Origin: Amycolatopsis mediterranei
Lineage (GTDB): Bacteria; Actinomycetota; Actinomycetes; Mycobacteriales; Pseudonocardiaceae
NCBI RefSeq assembly: GCF_026017845.1
Contig: NZ_CP100416.1
Location: 7,379,326 to 7,443,325 of the forward strand
Direction of reading: 5' to 3'
DNA length: 64,000 nt
Shown here piece by piece: positions 32,536-60,984 of the stretch. The number at the start of each line of letters is the position of its first letter. Position 1 is the stretch's first letter. Made by a program: the position numbers and the translations under genes. A model generated the notes under the pieces. It searched no databases, had not been told where the DNA came from, and was given only the letters and a program-made list of their open reading frames with translations.

Positions 32536-33312
32536 TCACGAAGCACAGCCGGCCAGCAGCCGGACGGCGTGCGCGGACTGGTCGAGCGCCGGGTCCTGCC
32601 GCAGGATCGCGATCTCCAGGTCACGCAGCCGCTGGCTGGGGTCGATGCCCACGTTGTCGGCCAATGCCGCGCGCAGCCTCCGGTACACCGACAACGCATC
32701 GGCCTGCCTGCCGGTGCGGTACAGCGCGAACATCAGCTGCGCGTGCACCTGCTCGTCGAACGGGTGCGCGCGGGCCAGCCGCTCCAGGTCCGGTTCGAGC
32801 TGGGCGTGCTCGCCGAGGGCCAGCCTGGCCCGGATCAGCGCCAGCTGGGCCCGCGTGCGCAACCGCTCCAGTGCGGCGGCCTGCTCGTCCAGCCACGCCA
32901 TCCCGCCGACGTCGACCAGCGAACGGTCCCGCCACAAGGCCAGCGCGGCCCGCAGCGTCGTGGCGCTTTGCGCTGGGTCGTCATCGCACTCGCCCCGCGC
33001 GACCAAGCGCTGCGCCTCGGTCACGTCCGTCGTGCCGGGACCGAGGTCGAGCAGGTAGCCGGGTGGCCGGGCGACGATCGCGTTCCGGTTGCCGAGCACG
33101 CGCCGGAGGGCGGACACGTGGCTTTGCAGGGTGTTCAACGACGCTCGGCCCGCCTTGTCACCCCAAACCGCTTCGATGAGCCGGCCCGTGCCGGCTATTC
33201 CTTCGCCGTGCAGGGCGAGTACCGCGAGAACTGCTTTTCGCCGGAGTCCCGCTATCGGCACCGGCGTCCCGCCGACGACGGCGTCGACCGGGCCGAGCAA
33301 TCTGACACGCAC
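32536..33312 (-). CDS. SARP-family regulator (DNA-binding plus BTAD)
   Basis: 258 residues from the GTG at 33312, preceded by GGGAGG. The winged OmpR-like domain covers about 1-90 (VRVRLLGPVDAVVGGTPV, LRRKAVLAVLALHGEG, TLQSHVSALRRVLG) and the bacterial transcriptional activator domain 95-245 (ALWRDRSLVDVGG..., FDEQVHAQLMFALYRTGRQADALSVYRRLRAAL given here as FDEQ...YRRLR). It lacks NTPase or TPR extensions. It lies directly upstream of the protease pair on the same strand (115 bp), so it may control that pair. An 11-bp-spaced repeat at 33372-33389 is a candidate site for itself. Confidence 0.9.
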   Translation of the reverse strand: MRVRLLGPVDAVVGGTPVPIAGLRRKAVLAVLALHGEGIAGTGRLIEAVWGDKAGRASLNTLQSHVSALRRVLGNRNAIVARPPGYLLDLGPGTTDVTEAQRLVARGECDDDPAQSATTLRAALALWRDRSLVDVGGMAWLDEQAAALERLRTRAQLALIRARLALGEHAQLEPDLERLARAHPFDEQVHAQLMFALYRTGRQADALSVYRRLRAALADNVGIDPSQRLRDLEIAILRQDPALDQSAHAVRLLAGCAS

Positions 33313-33371
33313 ATGGCCTCCCGTCCATCGCGGGGACGAGCCGGTCCCCGACGTGAACGCTGCCATGATCC

Positions 33372-33389
33372 GTCGACAATCCGTCGACA
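33372..33389. promoter_or_regulatory. candidate SARP box (11-bp-spaced direct repeat)
   Basis: GTCGACA occurs at 33372-33378 and 33383-33389, with starts exactly 11 bp apart and 60-77 bp upstream of the SARP start codon. SARP proteins bind heptameric direct repeats with this spacing, so autoregulation is plausible. A third copy is not evident. Confidence 0.5.
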
Positions 33390-45555: not shown

Positions 45556-48366
45556 TCACGTTGTCGTGGCGGGGTCACGCGCCGTGCGGGCCGTCGAATG
45601 GATCTTCTTGATGTGGTCGCGGAGATCGGCGGCGCCCCGGTGGCCGAGACGGTCGTAGGTGGCCAGTGCGGCGTAGAGGTGTTCGAGGGCCGGACCGGTC
45701 TCGGAGAGAGCGAGGCGGATGGAGCCCAACTGTTCCCGTGCCTCCGCGACCAATATCTCGTCACCGGTGGCGGTGGCGAGGTGCCTGCCGCGTTCGGCGA
45801 GGTCGAGCGCCGGTCTCAGGTCGTCGCACTCGGCGCTGAACGCGGCGAAGTCGATCAAGATCTGAGCCTGGTCACGAAGGTTGGTATCCCGGCCGGCGGC
45901 TTCGAGCGCGCGTTGGAAGTACTGTCGCGCCTCGCGGGGCCGGCCGGTGAGCTGGTAGGCCTCCGCCAGGTTGCTGTGGATCATCGTGGTGAAGTGCCCG
46001 TTGCCCGCGACTCCCCGCGCTTCCTCTGTCGCCTCGTGCAGGACCTGGATCGCTTCGTCGGGGCGCCGGTCGTTGAGGTGGACCGCCGCCAGGTTCAGCA
46101 GTGCGGTGGCGGTGCCCAGCCGGTCACCGAGGGATCGACGCAGTTCGTAGGCTCGCTTACACGCGGCCACGGCGTCGTTCACCTGCCGGAGCAGACCGTA
46201 CGCGATGGCCATCCGCCCGACGATGAGGGCCTCTCCCGCGACGTCGCCGGCGCGTACGGCGGCGTCGGCGGCGCGTCGGTAGATCTCGATCCACCCGGTG
46301 CGGGAGTAGCGGCGGTACAGCCACCCGTACATGGCCGCTGCGATCTGCCATGCGAATCCGGGGTGGTCCCGCTCGGCGAAGGTCACGGCGGCGATGAGGT
46401 TCTTTTCCTCGCGCCCGAGCCATTCCAGCGCGGCTGCCTCGTCGGTCGGTGTGATGGGGTGGGTGGTCGATTCGAAGTTGGGCCGCTCCCGGGGGCGGAG
46501 TACCCGGTCCGCCGCGTTCGCGGCGTCCCGGTACCAGGTCAGGACGCGGACGGCGGCGGCGTCCCGGTCGGCCCTGGTCGCGTCGGTGACGGCCCGATCG
46601 TGGGCGAAGAGCCGGACCAGGTCGTGCATCGCGAAGCGATCGGCGCCGGAGCTGACCACGAGGTGAGCGTCGGTGAGCTGAGCGAGCCGGTGCGCGGCGT
46701 GCGGCTGAGGCAGTCCGGCGAGGGCGGCGACGGCCGGCAGGGAGATGTCCGGCCCTGGCAGAAGACCCAGCAAAGCGTGTAGCCGGCGCGCCGGCGGACG
46801 CAGGTTGGCGTAGGACCGGTCCAGCGCCACCCGCACGGCCGCGTCCGGGTCGTCGGCCACCTGCAACGCGGCGAGCCTGCGGTCCGTAGCCAGTTCGGCG
46901 GCGTACCCGGTGACCGATAGGCTTCCGTTTTCGGCCAACGTGGCCCCGGCGATCCGCACGGCGAGGGGCAACCGGGCGCACAACCGAGTGATCTCGAGCG
47001 TTGCCGGGTGCTCGTTCGCGACCCGGTCGGCGCCGGCGATCTCACTCAGGAGCACACACGACTCGCGCGTGCTGAGCGAGCCGACCGTGATCCGCCGCGC
47101 GCCATCGAGGGCGACGAGTCCGTTCAGGCTGCCGCGGCTGGTCACCAGCGTGAAGCAAGCCCTGCCACCGGGAAGCAGCGAACGCACCTGGTCCGCGCTC
47201 GCGGCGTCGTCAAGGAGCACCAGCATGCGCCGGTCTGCCACCAGCGTGCGGAACAACGCCCCGGCCTCGTCCACCGACTTCGGCAAGTCCGCGACTGAAA
47301 CACCGAGAGCGCCGAGCAACTGCGTCAGCGCGTCGGCCGGTGAGGTCGCCGGCAGGCCGGCGAATCCGTTGAGGTTCAGGAAGAACTGGCCGTCCGGGAA
47401 GCTGTCCCTTCTGCGGTGGGCCCAGTTCAGGGCCAGGGCGGTCTTGCCGGCGCCGGCCATGCCGGCCAGCACGACGACCGACGCGCGTTGCCGACCCGCG
47501 ACCCCGAAAGCGTCGTCGAGCCTGGCGAATTCGTCGACGCGCCCGACGAACGGTCGCGTCGCCGCGGGCAGCTGGCGCGGCACCACCCGTTCCGCGGGCT
47601 TCGTGCGACCGGTCACGACCAGATCGGGGTCCGCCCGCAGGATGGCGTGATACAGCTGCTGCAGTGCGAAACCGGGGTCCGTCCCCAGCCTGTCGGCGAG
47701 CGCCGTGCGCGTGTCGTGGTAGACGGTGAGTGCTTCTGCGCCCCGGCCATCTCGATACAGGGCGAGCATGAGCGAGGAGACCAGTGACTCCCGGGTCGGG
47801 TGCTTGGCCACCAGGTCGGCCACCGTCGCCGTGGCCTGGCGATGCCGTCCGAGGGCCAGATCGGCCTCGGCCAGAGCCTCCCAGGCGGTCAGGCGCAGTT
47901 CGTCCAGCCCGGCGCCGAGCTGGTGCCTGAGATCCTCGTCGATCACGCCGGCGAGGAGCGGGCCGCGCCAGAGGTCGAGTGCGGCGCGGAGCAGGCACGC
48001 CTTCTCCTCGAGGTCGGTCGAGGCCAGCCCGCGAGTCACCGCCGTGCGGAACCGGTGGACGTCAATGGTTTCGGCGTCGGTTTCGATGAGGTAGGCCGGC
48101 CCCAGCGTCACGATCCGGCAGTCGCACCTGCCCTTCCGGCCGGGATCGAGCAGCCGGCGCAGGCGCGACACGTGTGTTTGCAACATCGCCCGGCCGTTCG
48201 GCGGCACGAATTCACCCCAGAGAACATCTTCCAGCCGGGCGAAGGACACCGGTTTGCCGGCTTCGAGCAGCAAAACGCCGAGCACCAGGCGTTGCGCGCG
48301 GCGCCCCAGCTCGAGGTCCTCGTTCCCCCTACTGACGCACATGGGGCCCAACAACCGGAATTCCAT
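45556..48366 (-). CDS. AfsR-like SARP regulator with NB-ARC ATPase and TPR domains
   Basis: 936 residues. The SARP DNA-binding and BTAD regions cover about 1-250 (MEFRLLGPMCVSRG, MLQTHVSRLRRLLDPG, ALYRDGRGAEALTVYHDTR). An NB-ARC/STAND ATPase follows at 270-560: PFVGRVDEF, P-loop LAGMAGAGKTALA (about 297-309), MLVLLDDAA as Walker B, LVTSRGSL, and LCARLPLAVRIAG. The C-terminus from about 700 is a TPR array (ATALLNLAAVHLNDRRPDEAIQVL as one unit). The length and order match AfsR-type global regulators. It is divergent from the three secreted-protein genes, with a matching direct repeat in the gap. Confidence 0.93.
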   Translation of the reverse strand: MEFRLLGPMCVSRGNEDLELGRRAQRLVLGVLLLEAGKPVSFARLEDVLWGEFVPPNGRAMLQTHVSRLRRLLDPGRKGRCDCRIVTLGPAYLIETDAETIDVHRFRTAVTRGLASTDLEEKACLLRAALDLWRGPLLAGVIDEDLRHQLGAGLDELRLTAWEALAEADLALGRHRQATATVADLVAKHPTRESLVSSLMLALYRDGRGAEALTVYHDTRTALADRLGTDPGFALQQLYHAILRADPDLVVTGRTKPAERVVPRQLPAATRPFVGRVDEFARLDDAFGVAGRQRASVVVLAGMAGAGKTALALNWAHRRRDSFPDGQFFLNLNGFAGLPATSPADALTQLLGALGVSVADLPKSVDEAGALFRTLVADRRMLVLLDDAASADQVRSLLPGGRACFTLVTSRGSLNGLVALDGARRITVGSLSTRESCVLLSEIAGADRVANEHPATLEITRLCARLPLAVRIAGATLAENGSLSVTGYAAELATDRRLAALQVADDPDAAVRVALDRSYANLRPPARRLHALLGLLPGPDISLPAVAALAGLPQPHAAHRLAQLTDAHLVVSSGADRFAMHDLVRLFAHDRAVTDATRADRDAAAVRVLTWYRDAANAADRVLRPRERPNFESTTHPITPTDEAAALEWLGREEKNLIAAVTFAERDHPGFAWQIAAAMYGWLYRRYSRTGWIEIYRRAADAAVRAGDVAGEALIVGRMAIAYGLLRQVNDAVAACKRAYELRRSLGDRLGTATALLNLAAVHLNDRRPDEAIQVLHEATEEARGVAGNGHFTTMIHSNLAEAYQLTGRPREARQYFQRALEAAGRDTNLRDQAQILIDFAAFSAECDDLRPALDLAERGRHLATATGDEILVAEAREQLGSIRLALSETGPALEHLYAALATYDRLGHRGAADLRDHIKKIHSTARTARDPATTT

Positions 48367-48406
48367 CTCTCCCCCCGCCGCATGATGCCCACTCGGGGGT
48401 CGCCCG

Positions 48407-48424
48407 TGTCAAGCCGCTGTCAAG
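48407..48424. promoter_or_regulatory. candidate SARP box upstream of the secreted-protein cluster
   Basis: TGTCAAG occurs at 48407-48413 and 48418-48424, with starts exactly 11 bp apart. A -10-like CAGACT follows at 48435-48440, giving the usual SARP geometry in which the last repeat overlaps the -35 position. It lies 52 bp before the first secreted-protein start and 41 bp from the AfsR-like start, so it could serve both. Confidence 0.6.
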
Positions 48425-48475
48425 GTGACCGGAGCAGACTCCGGGACACGGACAACAGAGCAGAGGAGTCAACGG

Positions 48476-48862
48476 ATGTCTCGCGGGATCAAGAAACCCC
48501 TGGCCGTCGTCACCAGTGGTGCGACCGTTCTGCTCGGGCTGGTGCTCGGCGCCGGAACAGCGGCGGCCGACACCACCAGCTGCACCATCCCGTCCTCCGG
48601 CATCGGCTGCTCGACCAGGGCGGTTTCGGCGAACAGCGCGGAACACGCCGTCAAGATGACGGTGTTCGCGCCGGACGGCGGAACGACCACTTGCCGGGTA
48701 CACGATGCCGTGAACGGGATTGAAGTGGGAATTCTCAGCAACAGCAGCCGTCTCGTCGCCAAGACCAAGAGGATCACCGGCCTCTACGCTTCCTACTTCC
48801 TGAGCTGCCTCAAAACGGGGAGCGGCGGTGGTGGCGGCGGCGCACTGACCAATGGATCGTGA
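48476..48862 (+). CDS. small secreted protein, first gene of the SARP-box cluster
   Basis: 128 residues from the ATG at 48476 with GAGGAG upstream. Signal peptide KKPLAVVTSGATVLLGLVLG, cleavage near AAA-DT. The mature part has Cys pairs (TSCTIPSSGIGC, TTTCRVHD, FLSCLKT), which probably form disulfides, and a Gly-rich tail. Family unknown. Its end overlaps a possible start for the next gene (GTGA at 48859), but the better start of that gene is at 48889. Confidence 0.75.
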   Translation: MSRGIKKPLAVVTSGATVLLGLVLGAGTAAADTTSCTIPSSGIGCSTRAVSANSAEHAVKMTVFAPDGGTTTCRVHDAVNGIEVGILSNSSRLVAKTKRITGLYASYFLSCLKTGSGGGGGGALTNGS

Positions 48863-48888
48863 CAAACGGAAACAGAGGGAGGAAGCAC

Positions 48889-49311
48889 GTGATTCGGAGA
48901 ACCATTGCGCGCGGCACCACGATCGTGACCGCGGTCGTCGCCTCGCTGGGGCTGGCGACCACGGTGGCGCTGGCGGGCGACAACAACCACAACGGCCAGG
49001 TGGACTACGGCGACACGGGCACCGCGGTCTGGTGCGCGCAGCACGTCGTGCACTCCTACGCCGGGATCAGCGTCGGCAGCAGCGGCGAGGACAGCGATTT
49101 CGGCTCAGCGACGAGGCAGGGCGTCAGGAACTACCAGTCCCGGAACAGCCTTGGCATCGACGGTCAGGTGGGCCCGCTCACCGGGCACAACATGCGCGAG
49201 TTCGTGAACCAGCTGCACCACCAAGCGATCCAGGACCACGACAACGCCCTCGTGCAGGACACCCTGCACTGGTTGAACATCTGCCCGAGCGCAGCGAGCG
49301 TGTTCAACTGA
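48889..49311 (+). CDS. secreted peptidoglycan-binding-domain-like protein
   Basis: 140 residues from the GTG at 48889, chosen because GGGAGGA lies 6 nt upstream; a GTG at 48859 would overlap the previous stop. Signal peptide ends near ALA-GD. The mature part contains a PG_binding_1-like repeat: CAQHVVHSYAG, DSDFGSATRQGVRNYQSRNSLGIDGQVGP (as FGSAT...GIDGQVGP). Such domains bind cell-wall or other polymers. It is the middle gene of three secreted proteins that probably form one operon under the AfsR-like regulator. Confidence 0.8.
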   Translation: MIRRTIARGTTIVTAVVASLGLATTVALAGDNNHNGQVDYGDTGTAVWCAQHVVHSYAGISVGSSGEDSDFGSATRQGVRNYQSRNSLGIDGQVGPLTGHNMREFVNQLHHQAIQDHDNALVQDTLHWLNICPSAASVFN

Positions 49312-49323
49312 GAGGAGACGCTC

Positions 49324-49794
49324 ATGAGCAACCGGCCCGGCATGCTCGGACACCTCGCCGCCGGTGTCACCACGGTTCTCGTCGCGACGGCGCTGACGCT
49401 GCTGCCGTCCGGCGTCGCGTCCGCGGCGACACCGCTGTGCACCACCATGGTCAACGTCAACCGGGGCGGCAACAACCTCTCCGTGCCCGCGACCGGCGGC
49501 GGGAACGTCACCTGCCTCATCAGCAGGACCCAAGCGGCCAACTCCGCCGTCGTGCAAGGCCTGCAGTACACGCTGAAGACATGCTATCCGACCGTTCGCC
49601 TGGCGAGCCCCTACTCTAGCGAGCTGGTGGGAAACCTCGCCGCCGACGGCAGTTTCGGGCCGAGGACGGAGGCTGCCGTCAAGGGCGTGCAATCGACCAT
49701 CGGCACCACTCCGGACGGCGGTTACGGCCCGAACACCCGAAACGCGATGCGATTCACGTCGAACGACGTGGCCGGCCGGTGCTACCACTACTAG
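49324..49794 (+). CDS. secreted peptidoglycan-binding-domain-like protein
   Basis: 156 residues, ATG at 49324 after GAGAGGAGACG. Signal peptide with the hydrophobic core VTTVLVATALTLLPSGV, cleavage near ASA-AT. The mature part has a Cys pair and a C-terminal repeat GSFGPRTEAAVKGVQSTIG with DGGYGPNTRNAM, again PG_binding_1-like. It follows the previous gene by 12 bp and is ended by a hairpin at 49810. A role in cell-wall interaction is likely. Confidence 0.8.
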   Translation: MSNRPGMLGHLAAGVTTVLVATALTLLPSGVASAATPLCTTMVNVNRGGNNLSVPATGGGNVTCLISRTQAANSAVVQGLQYTLKTCYPTVRLASPYSSELVGNLAADGSFGPRTEAAVKGVQSTIGTTPDGGYGPNTRNAMRFTSNDVAGRCYHY

Positions 49795-49809
49795 CGACTG
49801 ACCGGGGAC

Positions 49810-49840
49810 GGCGCCGGCGGAACTATGTTCTGCCGGCGCC
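49810..49840 (+). terminator. terminator of the secreted-protein cluster
   Basis: GGCGCCGGCGGAAC, loop TAT, GTTCTGCCGGCGCC: a 14-bp stem with one G-T pair, 15 bp after the stop. The sequence 49841-50006 holds no gene I recognise. Confidence 0.65.
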
Positions 49841-50006
49841 GCGCTTCGGGAGCCATCCGCCGGGCATCACGGTGGCTGCTGTCGTCGGACTTGCCGCCGG
49901 GCAGTGAGCTCGCCGATCATCCTCACCGGCTTCTCGACCTACTCGAGCCGAAGGCCGACACTTGTGGCAACTGACCGATCAGGGGTAGGTGGCCGACTGG
50001 TTCTGC

Positions 50007-52862: not shown

Positions 52863-55412
52863 GTGCCCGACCTGATCGAGCGTCGTGACCTGGTCGCCGC
52901 GCTCGACCGCGCCGCCAGGAGCCGGGTCACGGTCGTTTCGGCGCCCGCCGGCAGCGGAAAGACGTCGCTGCTGTGCCTGTGGCGTGACCAGTACGGCCGG
53001 GGCCGGCGGATCGCCTTCATGTCGGTGCGGCCGGAGCAACTCGACGCGCAGCTGTTCTGGCACGCCTTGCTCGGCGCGGTGTACGACGCCACCGGCGCGG
53101 ACCGCGTGGAGCCGTCGACGACACCTGGCTTCGACGGGCAGGCGATGGTGGACCGGGTGCTTTCGGAGATCGGCTCAGCCGGGGAGCCGATCTACCTGGT
53201 CATCGACGACTTGCACGAGCTGGGCTCCGCCGAGGCCGCCGATCAGCTCACGGCGCTGCTGACGCGGCTTCCGCCGCGCGTGCACGCGATCGTCGCCACC
53301 CGCCGCCTCCCGCCGCTGCGCCTGCACCGGCTGCGGCTGGCCGGGGAACTGGCCGAGATCCGCGTCCCACAATTGCGCTTCACCGAAGCCGAAACCCGGG
53401 AACTCCTGGCCACCGCCCGGATCCCACTGCCCGACGACGCGGCAGCCACCCTCCACCAGCGGACCGAGGGCTGGGCGGCCGGGCTGGGACTCGCGGTGCT
53501 CTCGCTGGCCGGGCACCCGGACCCCGCACGATTCGTGGCCGAGTTCTCCGGCAGCGACCGGACCGTCGCCGAGTACCTGATGGCCGAGATACTGGACCGG
53601 CAGCCGGCCGACGTGCGACGCCTGCTGCTACGCACGTCACTGCTGGACCGGGTCGACGGCGAGCTGGCGGACCTGCTCACCGGCGCGGCCGGTTCGGACC
53701 GGATCCTGCTGGAGCTCGAGGACGCGAACGCCTTCGTCGTCTCAGTCGACGCCACTCGCACCTGGTTCCGCTACCACAACCTGTTCGCCGGGCTGCTGCG
53801 ACTGGAGCTGCGCCGGACCCAGAACGCCGACATTCCCGCCCTGCACCGGCTCGCCGCGCGCTGGTTCGCGGAGCACGCGCTGCCCGCCGACGCCGTCCGG
53901 CACCTCCAGGCCGCCGGTGACTGGCCCGCGGCGGCCCGGCTGCTCGCCGACCATTCGCTCAGCATGACCCTCGACGGCCAAGGGGGCAGCGTGGCGGCCC
54001 TGCTGCGTGCCTTCCCGGCCAGGGCCGGTGCGCGGTCCCCGGAGCTGGCTGTGGTGCACGCGATCGCCGACCTCGACCGGATGCACCTCGACGACGCGGT
54101 GGCCCACCTGGCGATCGCACGGTCCCACGCCGGCACGACCGCGTCGCGGATGGTGATCACCGCCCTGGAGCTGCTGCTGGCCCGGCTGCGCGGCCACTTC
54201 TCCGCGGTCGTCGAGCAGGCGGATGCGCTGCCGTCGCCGGTGACCGGCCGGTCGGACGCCGACATCGCGCTCGTGGGCGACCTGCAAGCCGTCGCCCTGC
54301 TGAACCTCGGCGTCACCGAGGCGTGGTCGATGCGGCTCCCCGCAGCCGAGCGGCACCTCCTGGACGGCGCCGCCCTCGCCCGGGACATCGGCAGGCCCTA
54401 CCTCGAAGTGGCGTGCCTGGCGCACCTCGGGTTCGCGTCCACGTTCCGGTCCTTCGCCCTGGCGCGGCAGCGCTGTGAAGAGGCGATCGCGCTGGCGGCC
54501 CACCACGGCTGGGAGGCCGAGCCCGTGATCGCGCCCGCGGCTGTGACGCTCGCCGGGATCTTCGCCGGGACGGGCGAGTTCGACCGGGGCGAGCAGTGGC
54601 TGGCGCGGGCCGAGCGCCTCACCCGGGCCGAAGGTGAACCCGGCACCCGGCTGCTGGTGCACCTGGTCGCCGGGCTCCTCGCGGCGGCCCGCGGCCACCA
54701 TCGCGAAGCGTTGCCCGAGTTCGCCGCCGCGCGCCGGGTCCAGGCCGGCATGGCGGGTGAGCACGCACTGAGCGCCCGGGTCACCGCGTGGATGATCGCC
54801 ACGCAGGCCCGTGGCGGGCTGCTCGAAGAGGCGAAGGCGACCCTCGAGCACGCCGCAGGCGACGAGTTCGGCACCGCGGCGGCGGTCGTCCGGCTCGCCG
54901 GGGGAGATCCGGCCGGCGCCCGCGAGGAGCTGCGCAAGGTTCCCGAGACCGCCTCCGTGCCGGCCCGGATCGAGGCCCGGCTCGTGGCGGCGCTCGCCGG
55001 CTGGGAGCTGGGCGACAAGGCAGCGGCCGGAACCCTGGTCGAGGACGCCTTGACCCTCGCGGAGCAGGACCGGCTGATCCTGCCGTTCGCGATGACCGGG
55101 GCAGGGGAACTGCTCGAGTCCCTGCGGGAGACGTCGCACGCCGCGCTCGTCGCCGACATCCTCGACGTCGTCCGCGGTGGCGCGCCCGCGAACCCGCTTC
55201 CCGCCGGAGAACTCAGTCCGAGCGAACTTCGCGTGCTGCGCTACCTGCCGACCAACCTCACCCGGCCCGAGATCGCCGGGCAGCTGTCGGTTTCGCTCAA
55301 CACCGTCAACACCCACATCCGCCACATCTACGCGAAACTCGGCGCCACCGACCGGACGGCCGCCGTCCGCCGCGGACGCGAGCTGCGGCTCTTGGCTTCC
55401 GGCCGCGCCTGA
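52863..55412 (+). CDS. LAL-type LuxR regulator (MalT-like)
   Basis: 849 residues from a GTG at 52863. N-terminal ATPase: P-loop APAGSGKTS (27-35), Walker B IYLVIDDLHELG (about 118-129), IVATRRLPPL, RTEGWAAGLGLAVL. The middle is a long helical repeat region (TPR-like). The C-terminal LuxR HTH lies at about 784-845: LSPSELRVLRYL, RPEIAGQLSVSLNTVNTHI, KLGATDR. It activates transcription when a ligand and ATP are bound. It is divergent from the metallo-beta-lactamase-fold gene (106 bp) and convergent with the molybdenum hydroxylase. Confidence 0.92.
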   Translation: MPDLIERRDLVAALDRAARSRVTVVSAPAGSGKTSLLCLWRDQYGRGRRIAFMSVRPEQLDAQLFWHALLGAVYDATGADRVEPSTTPGFDGQAMVDRVLSEIGSAGEPIYLVIDDLHELGSAEAADQLTALLTRLPPRVHAIVATRRLPPLRLHRLRLAGELAEIRVPQLRFTEAETRELLATARIPLPDDAAATLHQRTEGWAAGLGLAVLSLAGHPDPARFVAEFSGSDRTVAEYLMAEILDRQPADVRRLLLRTSLLDRVDGELADLLTGAAGSDRILLELEDANAFVVSVDATRTWFRYHNLFAGLLRLELRRTQNADIPALHRLAARWFAEHALPADAVRHLQAAGDWPAAARLLADHSLSMTLDGQGGSVAALLRAFPARAGARSPELAVVHAIADLDRMHLDDAVAHLAIARSHAGTTASRMVITALELLLARLRGHFSAVVEQADALPSPVTGRSDADIALVGDLQAVALLNLGVTEAWSMRLPAAERHLLDGAALARDIGRPYLEVACLAHLGFASTFRSFALARQRCEEAIALAAHHGWEAEPVIAPAAVTLAGIFAGTGEFDRGEQWLARAERLTRAEGEPGTRLLVHLVAGLLAAARGHHREALPEFAAARRVQAGMAGEHALSARVTAWMIATQARGGLLEEAKATLEHAAGDEFGTAAAVVRLAGGDPAGAREELRKVPETASVPARIEARLVAALAGWELGDKAAAGTLVEDALTLAEQDRLILPFAMTGAGELLESLRETSHAALVADILDVVRGGAPANPLPAGELSPSELRVLRYLPTNLTRPEIAGQLSVSLNTVNTHIRHIYAKLGATDRTAAVRRGRELRLLASGRA

Positions 55413-58419: not shown

Positions 58420-60984
58420 CTACAGCAGGTTCAGCTCCCGGGCCCGCGCCACGGCCTCGGTGCGGTTGCGGGCCTGCAGGCGGCCGAAGATCTGGTTGAG
58501 GTGCCACTTCGTCGTGCCGACGGTGATGAACAGCTTGTCCGCCACCTGCCGGTTGGACATTCCGGTGGCGATCAGCCCGAGGATCCGCCGCTGGGTCTCC
58601 GTCAGCGTCTCCACCACCCCGACGCCTTCGACGGTGCGCAGCTCCGACCCGCGGGCAGGACCGGCCGGGGCGCCGCGGGAGCGGGAGAGCAGGTCGGTGA
58701 CGAACTCCGGCACCGTCGCGCGAACGTCCTTCACCAACGGCACCAGGGCCGGGCCCTCGTCGAGGAACGTCCGGCGGTAGCCGTCGGGCGCGGCGATCTC
58801 CACGGCCCTTGCGAGCAGCTCCCGCGCGGGCTCGCCGCGGCGCGCCAGCGCGCTCACCACCAGGATGGCCACGAGACTCCCGTCCCGGCCCTCCGCGCGG
58901 GCTCGGTCCTCGATCACGCCCAGCACATCCAGGGCGGCCGTCGGCGAGCCGCGCGCGATGAGCAGCCGGGCGCGGGTCAGCTGCTCGTAGTCCGAGGACG
59001 ACGGCTGGTCGCGGGTGATCTCGGCCAGTGCCTGCTCCGCCGCGGCGGAATTGCCGGACCGCAGGTGCAATTCCGCGATCGTCGCCACGACGAGCCGGGC
59101 GCGCCGGTAGTCCTCGGCGGCGTCCGCCTGCCGGCGCGCGGCCAGCAAGGCCTCGAAGCCCGCGTCCACCCGCCCGGACGCGTGGTGCAGCCGCGCCAGC
59201 GTCCGCAGCCCCAGCAAGGTGTAGGACGTCGTGCCGAGCTGCTCGCAGCGGGCGATCCCGTCCACGAGGTGCGTCCGGGCTTCCACGAGCTCGTCGCGTT
59301 CGTAGAGCAGCGTGCCCAGCGGCACCTCGGCCAGGCCGGCCATCGGGGCGCCGCCGTGGGCGCGCAGCGCGTCCCGGCACAACAGGATCGCCTCCCGCAG
59401 GCGCCCCTGGACGTACAGCAGCGGCGCGAGATAACCGGTGGCTTCCAACGCGCTCAGCGGGTTCCCGCTTCGCTCCCCCAGCCGGACCGCCTGGCGCAGC
59501 ACCTCGATCGCGCCGCGCCGGTCACCGGTGAGCCGCCGTGCCTGCCCCAGCACGCCCAGTGCGGCGGCGCGGAAGAACGACGTGCTGTCGCCGAGCAGGT
59601 CCAGGGCCGCGGTCGCGAGCCCGGCGGCGTCGGCGGGACGGCCGTGCGTCAGGGCGAGGTACGCCTGGAACGTCCGGAGCATCGCGCGGTCGAGCACGGG
59701 CGCGGCCGGCCCCATGCCCGCGTCGGCGATCGCCGCGTACGCCTCGGCCTCGTCGGCGCGCCCGGCGAGGTAGAGCAGCCAGCCCTTGAACCCGGCGAGG
59801 TCGGGGTGCGCCCGCACCTCGTCCTCGGGCAGCCGGTTCAGCCACGACAGCAGCGTCGCCAGCTCGCCGCGGCGCACCTGGTCCTCGGCCTGTTCACGCA
59901 CGGTCGCGACGGCCAGGCCCAGTTCGTGGCCGGGGACCGCGTGGCGGATCGTCTCGGCGGGCATCCCCTCCGCCGAGAACCACCGCGCCGCCCGCGCGTG
60001 ACACTCCACCGCGACGTCCGCGGCCAGCTCGCCGCGCAGGTAGTCGGCGAACAGACCGTGGTAGCGGTGCCACTCCCCCGCGTCGTCGACCGGGGTGAGG
60101 AACAGGTTGGCGCGTTCGAGGTCGCGGATCACCCGATCGCTGTCCGAACGCCCGGTGACGGCGTCGCACAACGACGGCGTCAGGGTCTCGAGCACGCTCG
60201 TGCGGAGCAGGAACTCGCGGACGTCGGCGGGCTGGCGGCCCACGACCTCCTCGGCGAGGTAGTCCAGCACGTACCGGTTGCCCGGCCGCAGCCGCACCGA
60301 CGGCGCGGCCGCCGTGCCGTCGCGCAGGCCGATGCCGAGCAGCTGCAGGGCCGCCGCCCAGCCCTCGGCCCGGCGGTTCAGCTCGCCGACGGTGTCCACG
60401 TCGACCTCCCGCCCGGCGACGGCGGTGAGCAGCCCGGCGGCCTCGTCCGGGGTGAACCGCAGCTGGGTGGCGCCGACCTCGGCCAGCAGTCCCCGCCCGC
60501 GCCAGCGCGCCAAGGGGAGGTCTGGTTCGGTGCGGCCGAGCAGCACCAGGTGCACCCCCGGCGGGCAGTGCTCGACGAGGAACGTCAGGGCGTCGAGGTT
60601 CTCCGGCTCGGCGAGCACGTCGACGTCGTCGAGCACCAGGACGCGTTCGGCGCCGACGAGTTCGTTGACCAGTTCGGTCATCACCGCCGGGGTCGAGGCG
60701 GTGCCGGAGTCCAGCAACGTCCGGCTCGCGGCGAGCGCGGTGGCGAGGTGCTCGAGGAAGCGGCCGGGGACGTCGTCGTCCTCGTCGAGGGTCAGCCAGG
60801 CGGCGCGCCCGGCGAAGTCCCGCAGCCAGGCGCTCACCAGGGTCGTCTTGCCGAACCCGGCGGGCGCGGTGACCAGGGTGACCGGGTGGGCGGGGACGAC
60901 GTCGAGCAGGCGCAGCAGCCGCGTCCGCGTGACCGTGCCCGGGCGGTCCGGCGGGATGAGCAGCTTCGTCGCCACCACCTGCAT
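58420..60984 (-). CDS. LAL-type LuxR regulator (MalT-like)
   Basis: 854 residues. N-terminal ATPase: TKLLIPPDRPGTVTRTRLL, P-loop APAGFGKTT (40-48), Walker B VLVLDDVDVL, LVLLGRTEPDL, RAEGWAAALQLLGI. The centre is TPR-like. The C-terminal LuxR HTH reads LTETQRRILGLIATGMSNRQVADKLFI, VGTTKWHLNQIFGRLQARNRTEAV (pieces). It is transcribed towards the molybdenum hydroxylase pair (96 bp upstream of it) and away from the acyl-CoA dehydrogenase operon, so either could be its target. Confidence 0.92.
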   Translation of the reverse strand: MQVVATKLLIPPDRPGTVTRTRLLRLLDVVPAHPVTLVTAPAGFGKTTLVSAWLRDFAGRAAWLTLDEDDDVPGRFLEHLATALAASRTLLDSGTASTPAVMTELVNELVGAERVLVLDDVDVLAEPENLDALTFLVEHCPPGVHLVLLGRTEPDLPLARWRGRGLLAEVGATQLRFTPDEAAGLLTAVAGREVDVDTVGELNRRAEGWAAALQLLGIGLRDGTAAAPSVRLRPGNRYVLDYLAEEVVGRQPADVREFLLRTSVLETLTPSLCDAVTGRSDSDRVIRDLERANLFLTPVDDAGEWHRYHGLFADYLRGELAADVAVECHARAARWFSAEGMPAETIRHAVPGHELGLAVATVREQAEDQVRRGELATLLSWLNRLPEDEVRAHPDLAGFKGWLLYLAGRADEAEAYAAIADAGMGPAAPVLDRAMLRTFQAYLALTHGRPADAAGLATAALDLLGDSTSFFRAAALGVLGQARRLTGDRRGAIEVLRQAVRLGERSGNPLSALEATGYLAPLLYVQGRLREAILLCRDALRAHGGAPMAGLAEVPLGTLLYERDELVEARTHLVDGIARCEQLGTTSYTLLGLRTLARLHHASGRVDAGFEALLAARRQADAAEDYRRARLVVATIAELHLRSGNSAAAEQALAEITRDQPSSSDYEQLTRARLLIARGSPTAALDVLGVIEDRARAEGRDGSLVAILVVSALARRGEPARELLARAVEIAAPDGYRRTFLDEGPALVPLVKDVRATVPEFVTDLLSRSRGAPAGPARGSELRTVEGVGVVETLTETQRRILGLIATGMSNRQVADKLFITVGTTKWHLNQIFGRLQARNRTEAVARARELNLL

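Follow-up and report, generated by a model that had tools for sequence, protein, structure and literature searches.

The window, by which we mean the whole 64,000-nucleotide stretch of DNA that was analyzed, carries an exact direct repeat, TGTCAAG-CCGC-TGTCAAG, inside the 109-bp gap between a large regulator gene (REG) and gene A, the first of three small genes (A, B and C) that diverge from REG. The locus is composed of the following features.

45556-48366, minus strand: REG, a 936-amino-acid AfsR-like regulator with winged helix, BTAD, NB-ARC and TPR domains (profile matches and AfsR alignment)
48407-48413, plus strand: first heptamer, TGTCAAG (sequence)
48418-48424, plus strand: second heptamer, TGTCAAG, forming with the first the proposed SARP operator (sequence and class evidence)
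48435-48440, plus strand: candidate -10 element CAGACT, beginning 10 bp past the second heptamer (five of 21 box groups have YAnnnT at 8-10 bp)
48462-48468, plus strand: likely ribosome-binding site of gene A, AGAGGAG (sequence)
48476-48862, plus strand: gene A, ATG start, 128 amino acids, N terminus resembling a signal peptide, no family match better than chance
48889-49311, plus strand: gene B, 140-amino-acid secreted-type protein, one PG_binding_1 match
49324-49794, plus strand: gene C, 156-amino-acid secreted-type protein, one PG_binding_1 match
49809-49841, plus strand: strong hairpin with a 15-bp stem right after gene C, without a T run (z -3.8)

The domain content of REG bears out the preliminary description, which had called this neighbor AfsR-like. 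Specifically, the BTAD domain scores 135.4 bits against PF03704 (cut-off 22.1), and matches to NB-ARC (35.8 bits) and TPR_12 (65.3 bits), the additional domains expected of a large SARP, also exceed their cut-offs. The Trans_reg_C match of 24.3 bits falls slightly below its cut-off of 26.2, and we judge the winged helix and BTAD combination to be present. The best solved relative is AfsR of Streptomyces coelicolor, which aligns with REG over residues 2-813. The score against the AfsR equivalog model NF053617 is 458.9 bits with a cut-off of 1430, and by its sequence REG is a relative of AfsR, not AfsR itself. Residues T64 and R68 of REG match T88 and R92 of AfsR, which contact bases in the AfsR structure (PMC10936776). 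The Walker motif is also kept, and the recognition helix reads LQTHVSRLR. Two more large ATPase regulators, of the LuxR/MalT type (52863-55412 and 58420-60984), lie at distances of up to 13 kb from REG.

Genes A, B and C are tightly packed, with gaps of 26 bp between A and B and 12 bp between B and C, and the N termini of all three products look signal-peptide-like when judged by eye, in agreement with the three small secreted proteins noted earlier. The accompanying claim that two of these proteins carry peptidoglycan-binding repeats stands in part: B and C do match PG_binding_1, but each with a single match above cut-off rather than with repeats. Protein A has no credible family match, and its predicted fold (mean pLDDT 46) is useless. 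The secreted products of A-B-C may act at the cell wall. The hairpin that follows gene C, which was not called by a terminator scan, possibly marks the end of the operon. As anticipated from the first inspection, no biosynthetic cluster was recognised among the scanned neighbors.

The pairing of REG with A-B-C is not conserved among the genomes searched (80 of the genus for A and REG, 150 of the family for C). Protein A has no relative in the 80 genus genomes, where the best other match has an E value of 0.002, and the best match to REG reaches 44%. Near relatives of REG (L097, L012-L014) have no matching box. Five genomes of other genera contain tandem pairs of C relatives, about 50% identical to C, with no REG relative nearby. 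These tandem pairs (L053-L057) encode small secreted-type proteins, and at two of the loci (L055 and L056) they lie behind what look like response-regulator genes, which suggests a swap of regulators.

The preliminary description had also pointed to TGTCAAG repeated at the SARP-type period of 11 bp. This is exactly what is present: the two heptamers are identical and spaced 11 bp start to start, as expected of a SARP operator, and neither the window nor the 10.6-Mb genome has another exact match. Shuffling the 109-bp gap yields an exact 7-mer pair at offset 11 in 0.57% of cases (n=20,000; p ~0.006), and a pair at any offset from 8 to 40 appears in 17% of 5,000 gap shuffles. Across the whole window there are eight exact 7-mer pairs at offset 11, compared to a mean of 4.8 for offsets that are not multiples of 3. 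Because this background amounts to about five pairs per offset, the repeat by itself is unremarkable; what is remarkable is its position upstream of a BTAD gene. Taken alone, the repeat is modest evidence, and for that reason we surveyed the BTAD gene class for such repeats; the comparative data carry the weight.

The survey comprises 168 BTAD regulators, nearly all from the genus of the window, with nine named genome_contigs loci among them; five of 173 loci had no usable regulator start (L257, L259 and L260 gave no match, and L244 and L255 were skipped). Grouping at 60% identity over the N-terminal 110 residues yields 89 groups, or 88 when the window's own is left out, and each group was weighted by the share of its members carrying the repeat. 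Within 150 bp upstream of the regulator, exact 7-mers recur at offset 11 in 16.06 of the 88 groups, whereas the 32 other offsets between 8 and 40 average 1.31 groups (sd 1.02, maximum 3.24). From this ratio, about 92% of such upstream repeats are not due to chance. Similarly, 8-mers at offset 11 in the same stretch are found in 8.59 groups versus 0.41. The signal declines to 4.09 versus 1.85 elsewhere at 150-300 bp upstream, and there is no peak at 450-1000 bp, where the offset-11 value is 0.5-1.1. The 11-bp repeat is present at nine of the 37 other BTAD genes tested in the same genome, at nine of 29 other loci at the level of the order, and at both BTAD genes of the window, and the heptamer words vary from group to group. 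For the regions upstream of BTAD regulators in this genus, an 11-bp period is thus a hallmark in the statistical sense.

These counts also bear on whether the TGTCAAG repeat is a product of chance with no function. Shuffled gaps that produce a 7-mer pair at some offset in 17% of cases, and a window in which some five pairs per offset are usual, leave room for such an origin. Given the p value at offset 11 in this gap and the excess of groups at the same place and offset, however, we regard chance as highly improbable.

The second BTAD gene of the window (258 amino acids, 32536-33312) adjoins a Peptidase_A4 gene and has a perfect 11-bp repeat at 33369-33389, which is of the TGTCGACGGAT type when read toward the gene and is followed 9 bp on by CAGCGT. 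The 21-bp word of this gene has eight genome matches with up to three mismatches (two pairs of them overlapping) versus none for the control, and therefore looks like a small regulon; its sites include positions upstream of three BTAD genes and one secreted-type protein gene. In one AfsR-like group (L098-L124, L163, L168, L172), 23 of 24 members across the genus have kept TGCAAGC-4-TGCAAGC at a distance of about 26-40 bp before the start of the regulator, and in most of them a third TGCA unit comes next, again at 11 bp. For the TGTCAAG pair, a wider regulon was considered and rejected, since the genome contains 11 pairs with up to two mismatches versus 16 for a reversed control. The pairs with one mismatch are two in number, one between the ends of two converging genes (L065) and the other at L003. 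Outside this genome, the exact pair occurs in G028 and in G107; in G107 it precedes a permease gene, and no BTAD-like start was called in its vicinity.

The hallmark period, the likeness of TGTCAAG to the words of PapR2 and PimR, and the retention of the base-contacting residues T64 and R68 together support the reading of the repeat as a SARP operator, which on this sequence evidence is likely. PapR2, which activates pristinamycin production, is a small SARP. Its consensus GTCAGSS (PMC7040171) has GTCA in common with TGTCAAG, although PapR2 differs in being the activator of an antibiotic cluster. The PimR heptamer CGGCAAG (PMC5930380) ends in CAAG like the window's word. PimR, like SanG and PolR a SARP-LAL regulator, has 4-bp spacers, and its operator lies between the regulator and its target gene pimM, as proposed for the window. 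Unlike the arrangement proposed here, the main PimR operator comprises three repeats and is clear of the -35 position; the C-terminal half of PimR is of the LAL type, and its target is a polyene cluster.

The closest parallel in domain architecture is AfsR at the afs box of the afsS promoter in S. coelicolor, which like REG combines SARP, NB-ARC and TPR domains. The AfsR structural report (PMC10936776) gives the geometry of the box, in which two 11-bp repeats precede a poor CAnnnT -10 element (CACTGT), comparable with the candidate CAGACT of the window, as well as the T88 and R92 contacts kept in REG. In contrast, the AfsR word, approximately CGTT(T/C)ATCG, is unlike TGTCAAG, the known AfsR target afsS is not an operon of secreted proteins, and REG scores far under the NCBIfam AfsR cut-off.

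A repeat of this kind might be read by some other protein, such as a PhoP- or GlnR-like response regulator that recognizes TCA-core repeats, another SARP from the same genome, or a sigma factor. The TCA triad is common to Pho boxes of the GTTCACC type, as noted in PMC7040171, and mycobacterial PhoP is described in PMC4832192 as binding 7-bp repeats with 4-bp spacers; yet both units in the window read TGTCAAG. Other SARPs are available, with 44 BTAD matches in the genome, most of them orphans. Furthermore, TGTCAAG on the other strand is CTTGACA, which gives two -35-like hexamers for the regulator gene, but the nearest YAnnnT on the minus strand (CATCAT) is 19 bp from TTGACA, and a sigma-70 consensus scan of 48300-49900 found no promoter on either strand. 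The restriction of the 11-bp peak to the stretch just upstream of BTAD genes, and the variation of words by regulator, likewise argue against a foreign reader, for which we see a slim chance.

SARP operators typically have their 3′ repeat about 8 bp from the -10 element and overlie the -35 position. As to the earlier claim that a -10-like element follows at the right distance, CAGACT is present and begins 10 bp after the second heptamer, but the element is weak: it retains only the A and the final T of TAnnnT, and the consensus scan called no sigma-70 promoter. Elements of the YAnnnT form starting 8-10 bp past the second heptamer are found in five of 21 box groups versus 0.76 in shuffled sequence (P 0.0004), or in four of 20 without the window. 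Examples are CAGACT in the window, CAGTCT (L153) and CAGAGT (L126), all at 10 bp, and CACGCT at 8 bp (L141, L148); none of the 21 groups has a full TAnnnT at this distance. Because a scan toward the regulator also finds YAnnnT, at 9 bp in three of the 21 groups, this statistic fails to fix the direction of transcription. Two things favor transcription away from the regulator, namely the short distance of 40 bp on the regulator side and the outward orientation of the CAAGGT pairs in this class, described below, and the start of the A-B-C transcript is predicted at about 48447.

The same evidence bears on the alternative that the box is a SARP operator serving REG itself, through autoactivation or autorepression, with A-B-C as bystanders. 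Many groups have boxes near the regulator start, and not all of these have a divergent gene close by; among 18 box groups, each taken by one representative, five have no called neighbor within 500 bp and two have a co-directional neighbor. The box of the window's second BTAD gene, with its CAGCGT, reads toward its own gene. At REG, however, a promoter pointing that way would have to fit into the 40 bp between the box and the regulator start, leaving only about 10-20 nt of leader for the GGGGGAGAG ribosome site, and CAAGGT pairs point away from the regulator in all five groups that carry them. We therefore consider exclusive self-regulation unlikely.

The reading that we prefer, and hold to be probable, is that REG, the SARP-type STAND regulator next door, has its cognate operator in this repeat and activates A-B-C through sigma docking. 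Two SARP domains would sit side by side at the -35 position, one on each 11-bp unit, and would dock region 4 of sigma as AfsR does at afsS. This docking would activate the weak promoter with its CAGACT element, such that A, B and C are transcribed in the direction leading away from REG. Its NB-ARC and TPR domains would restrain the SARP domain until a signal, together with ATP, releases it. As no second regulator with the same helix, no wider regulon and no conserved operon were found, the case for binding by REG, for activation and for A-B-C as the target draws on the gene layout and on how the class behaves; the direction, the -10 element and the signal are inferred as well. A-B-C as the target of the regulator is plausible on the arrangement of the genes. 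SARPs have mostly been studied as activators of antibiotic clusters (PMC10972967), whereas the operon opposite the SARP described here most likely encodes secreted proteins that have domains of the cell-wall-binding type.

If each regulator has its own operator word, then the word might be related to the recognition helix. The helix LYS[HY][LI][ST]R[IL]R is found in five groups of regulators, and each of these groups has at least one member with an outward pair of CAAGGT words, 11 bp apart and with no more than one mismatch. Five of the six such regulators carry the pair (L125, L162, L182, L228, L246) and one does not (L200). At an equal threshold, the pair is present in one of 84 other groups, at L252, whose helix LYAYVSRLR is similar. 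The LYS[HY]-CAAGGT pairing is possibly a SARP recognition code. Regulators with the helix VQKH[VI]AGLR have GGCAG repeats at eight of eight order-level loci, a count from which relatedness was not removed and in which most loci are from one genus. CAAG is placed outward in six of 21 boxes, the window's included.

Two observations count against a simple helix code. A Mantel test on 21 groups gives a weak result that fails to tell the helix from the rest of the domain, with which the box correlates (P 0.011) almost as well as with the helix (P 0.006), and L143 and L150 have one common box despite different helices. At the thresholds applied, neither the 80 genomes of the genus nor the 396 of the phylum yielded another regulator bearing the QTHVSR helix.

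We give about even odds to a broader proposal, in which the AfsR-like STAND regulators of this genus act for the most part as local switches: every regulator would have an operator of its own beside its gene, many would face a divergent gene that belongs to no antibiotic cluster, and the helix would reveal the operator word, YS(H/Y) with CAAGGT, QKH..G with GGCAG, and QTHVSR with TGTCAAG. If true, dozens of orphan SARPs become predicted sets of regulator, operator and target. The 11-bp signature upstream of a regulator gene would be a cheap route to predicting operators and targets, and the correspondence between helix and word may allow DNA words to be assigned to the proteins that read them. 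While the locus belongs to a known kind, we had not expected the self-adjacent 11-bp box to be so general and so regulator-specific in the genus. In a literature search covering titles and the beginnings of abstracts, we recognized nothing on secreted targets of SARPs, on their recognition specificity or on repeats at their own promoters, and a search for SARPs with TGTCAAG returned unrelated papers only.

Secreted divergent neighbors are not enriched among box groups by an automatic signal-peptide rule applied to one representative per group (one of 11 divergent neighbors of box groups versus six of 36 for groups without a box). Several more neighbors of boxes look secreted by eye, a reading that was not blind and from which we draw no claim. 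In one regulator group (L188, L210 and L304), the upstream regions contain runs of GTCCAGCC-like units at 10-11 bp, and at L210 and L188 these runs face a divergent secreted-type protein.
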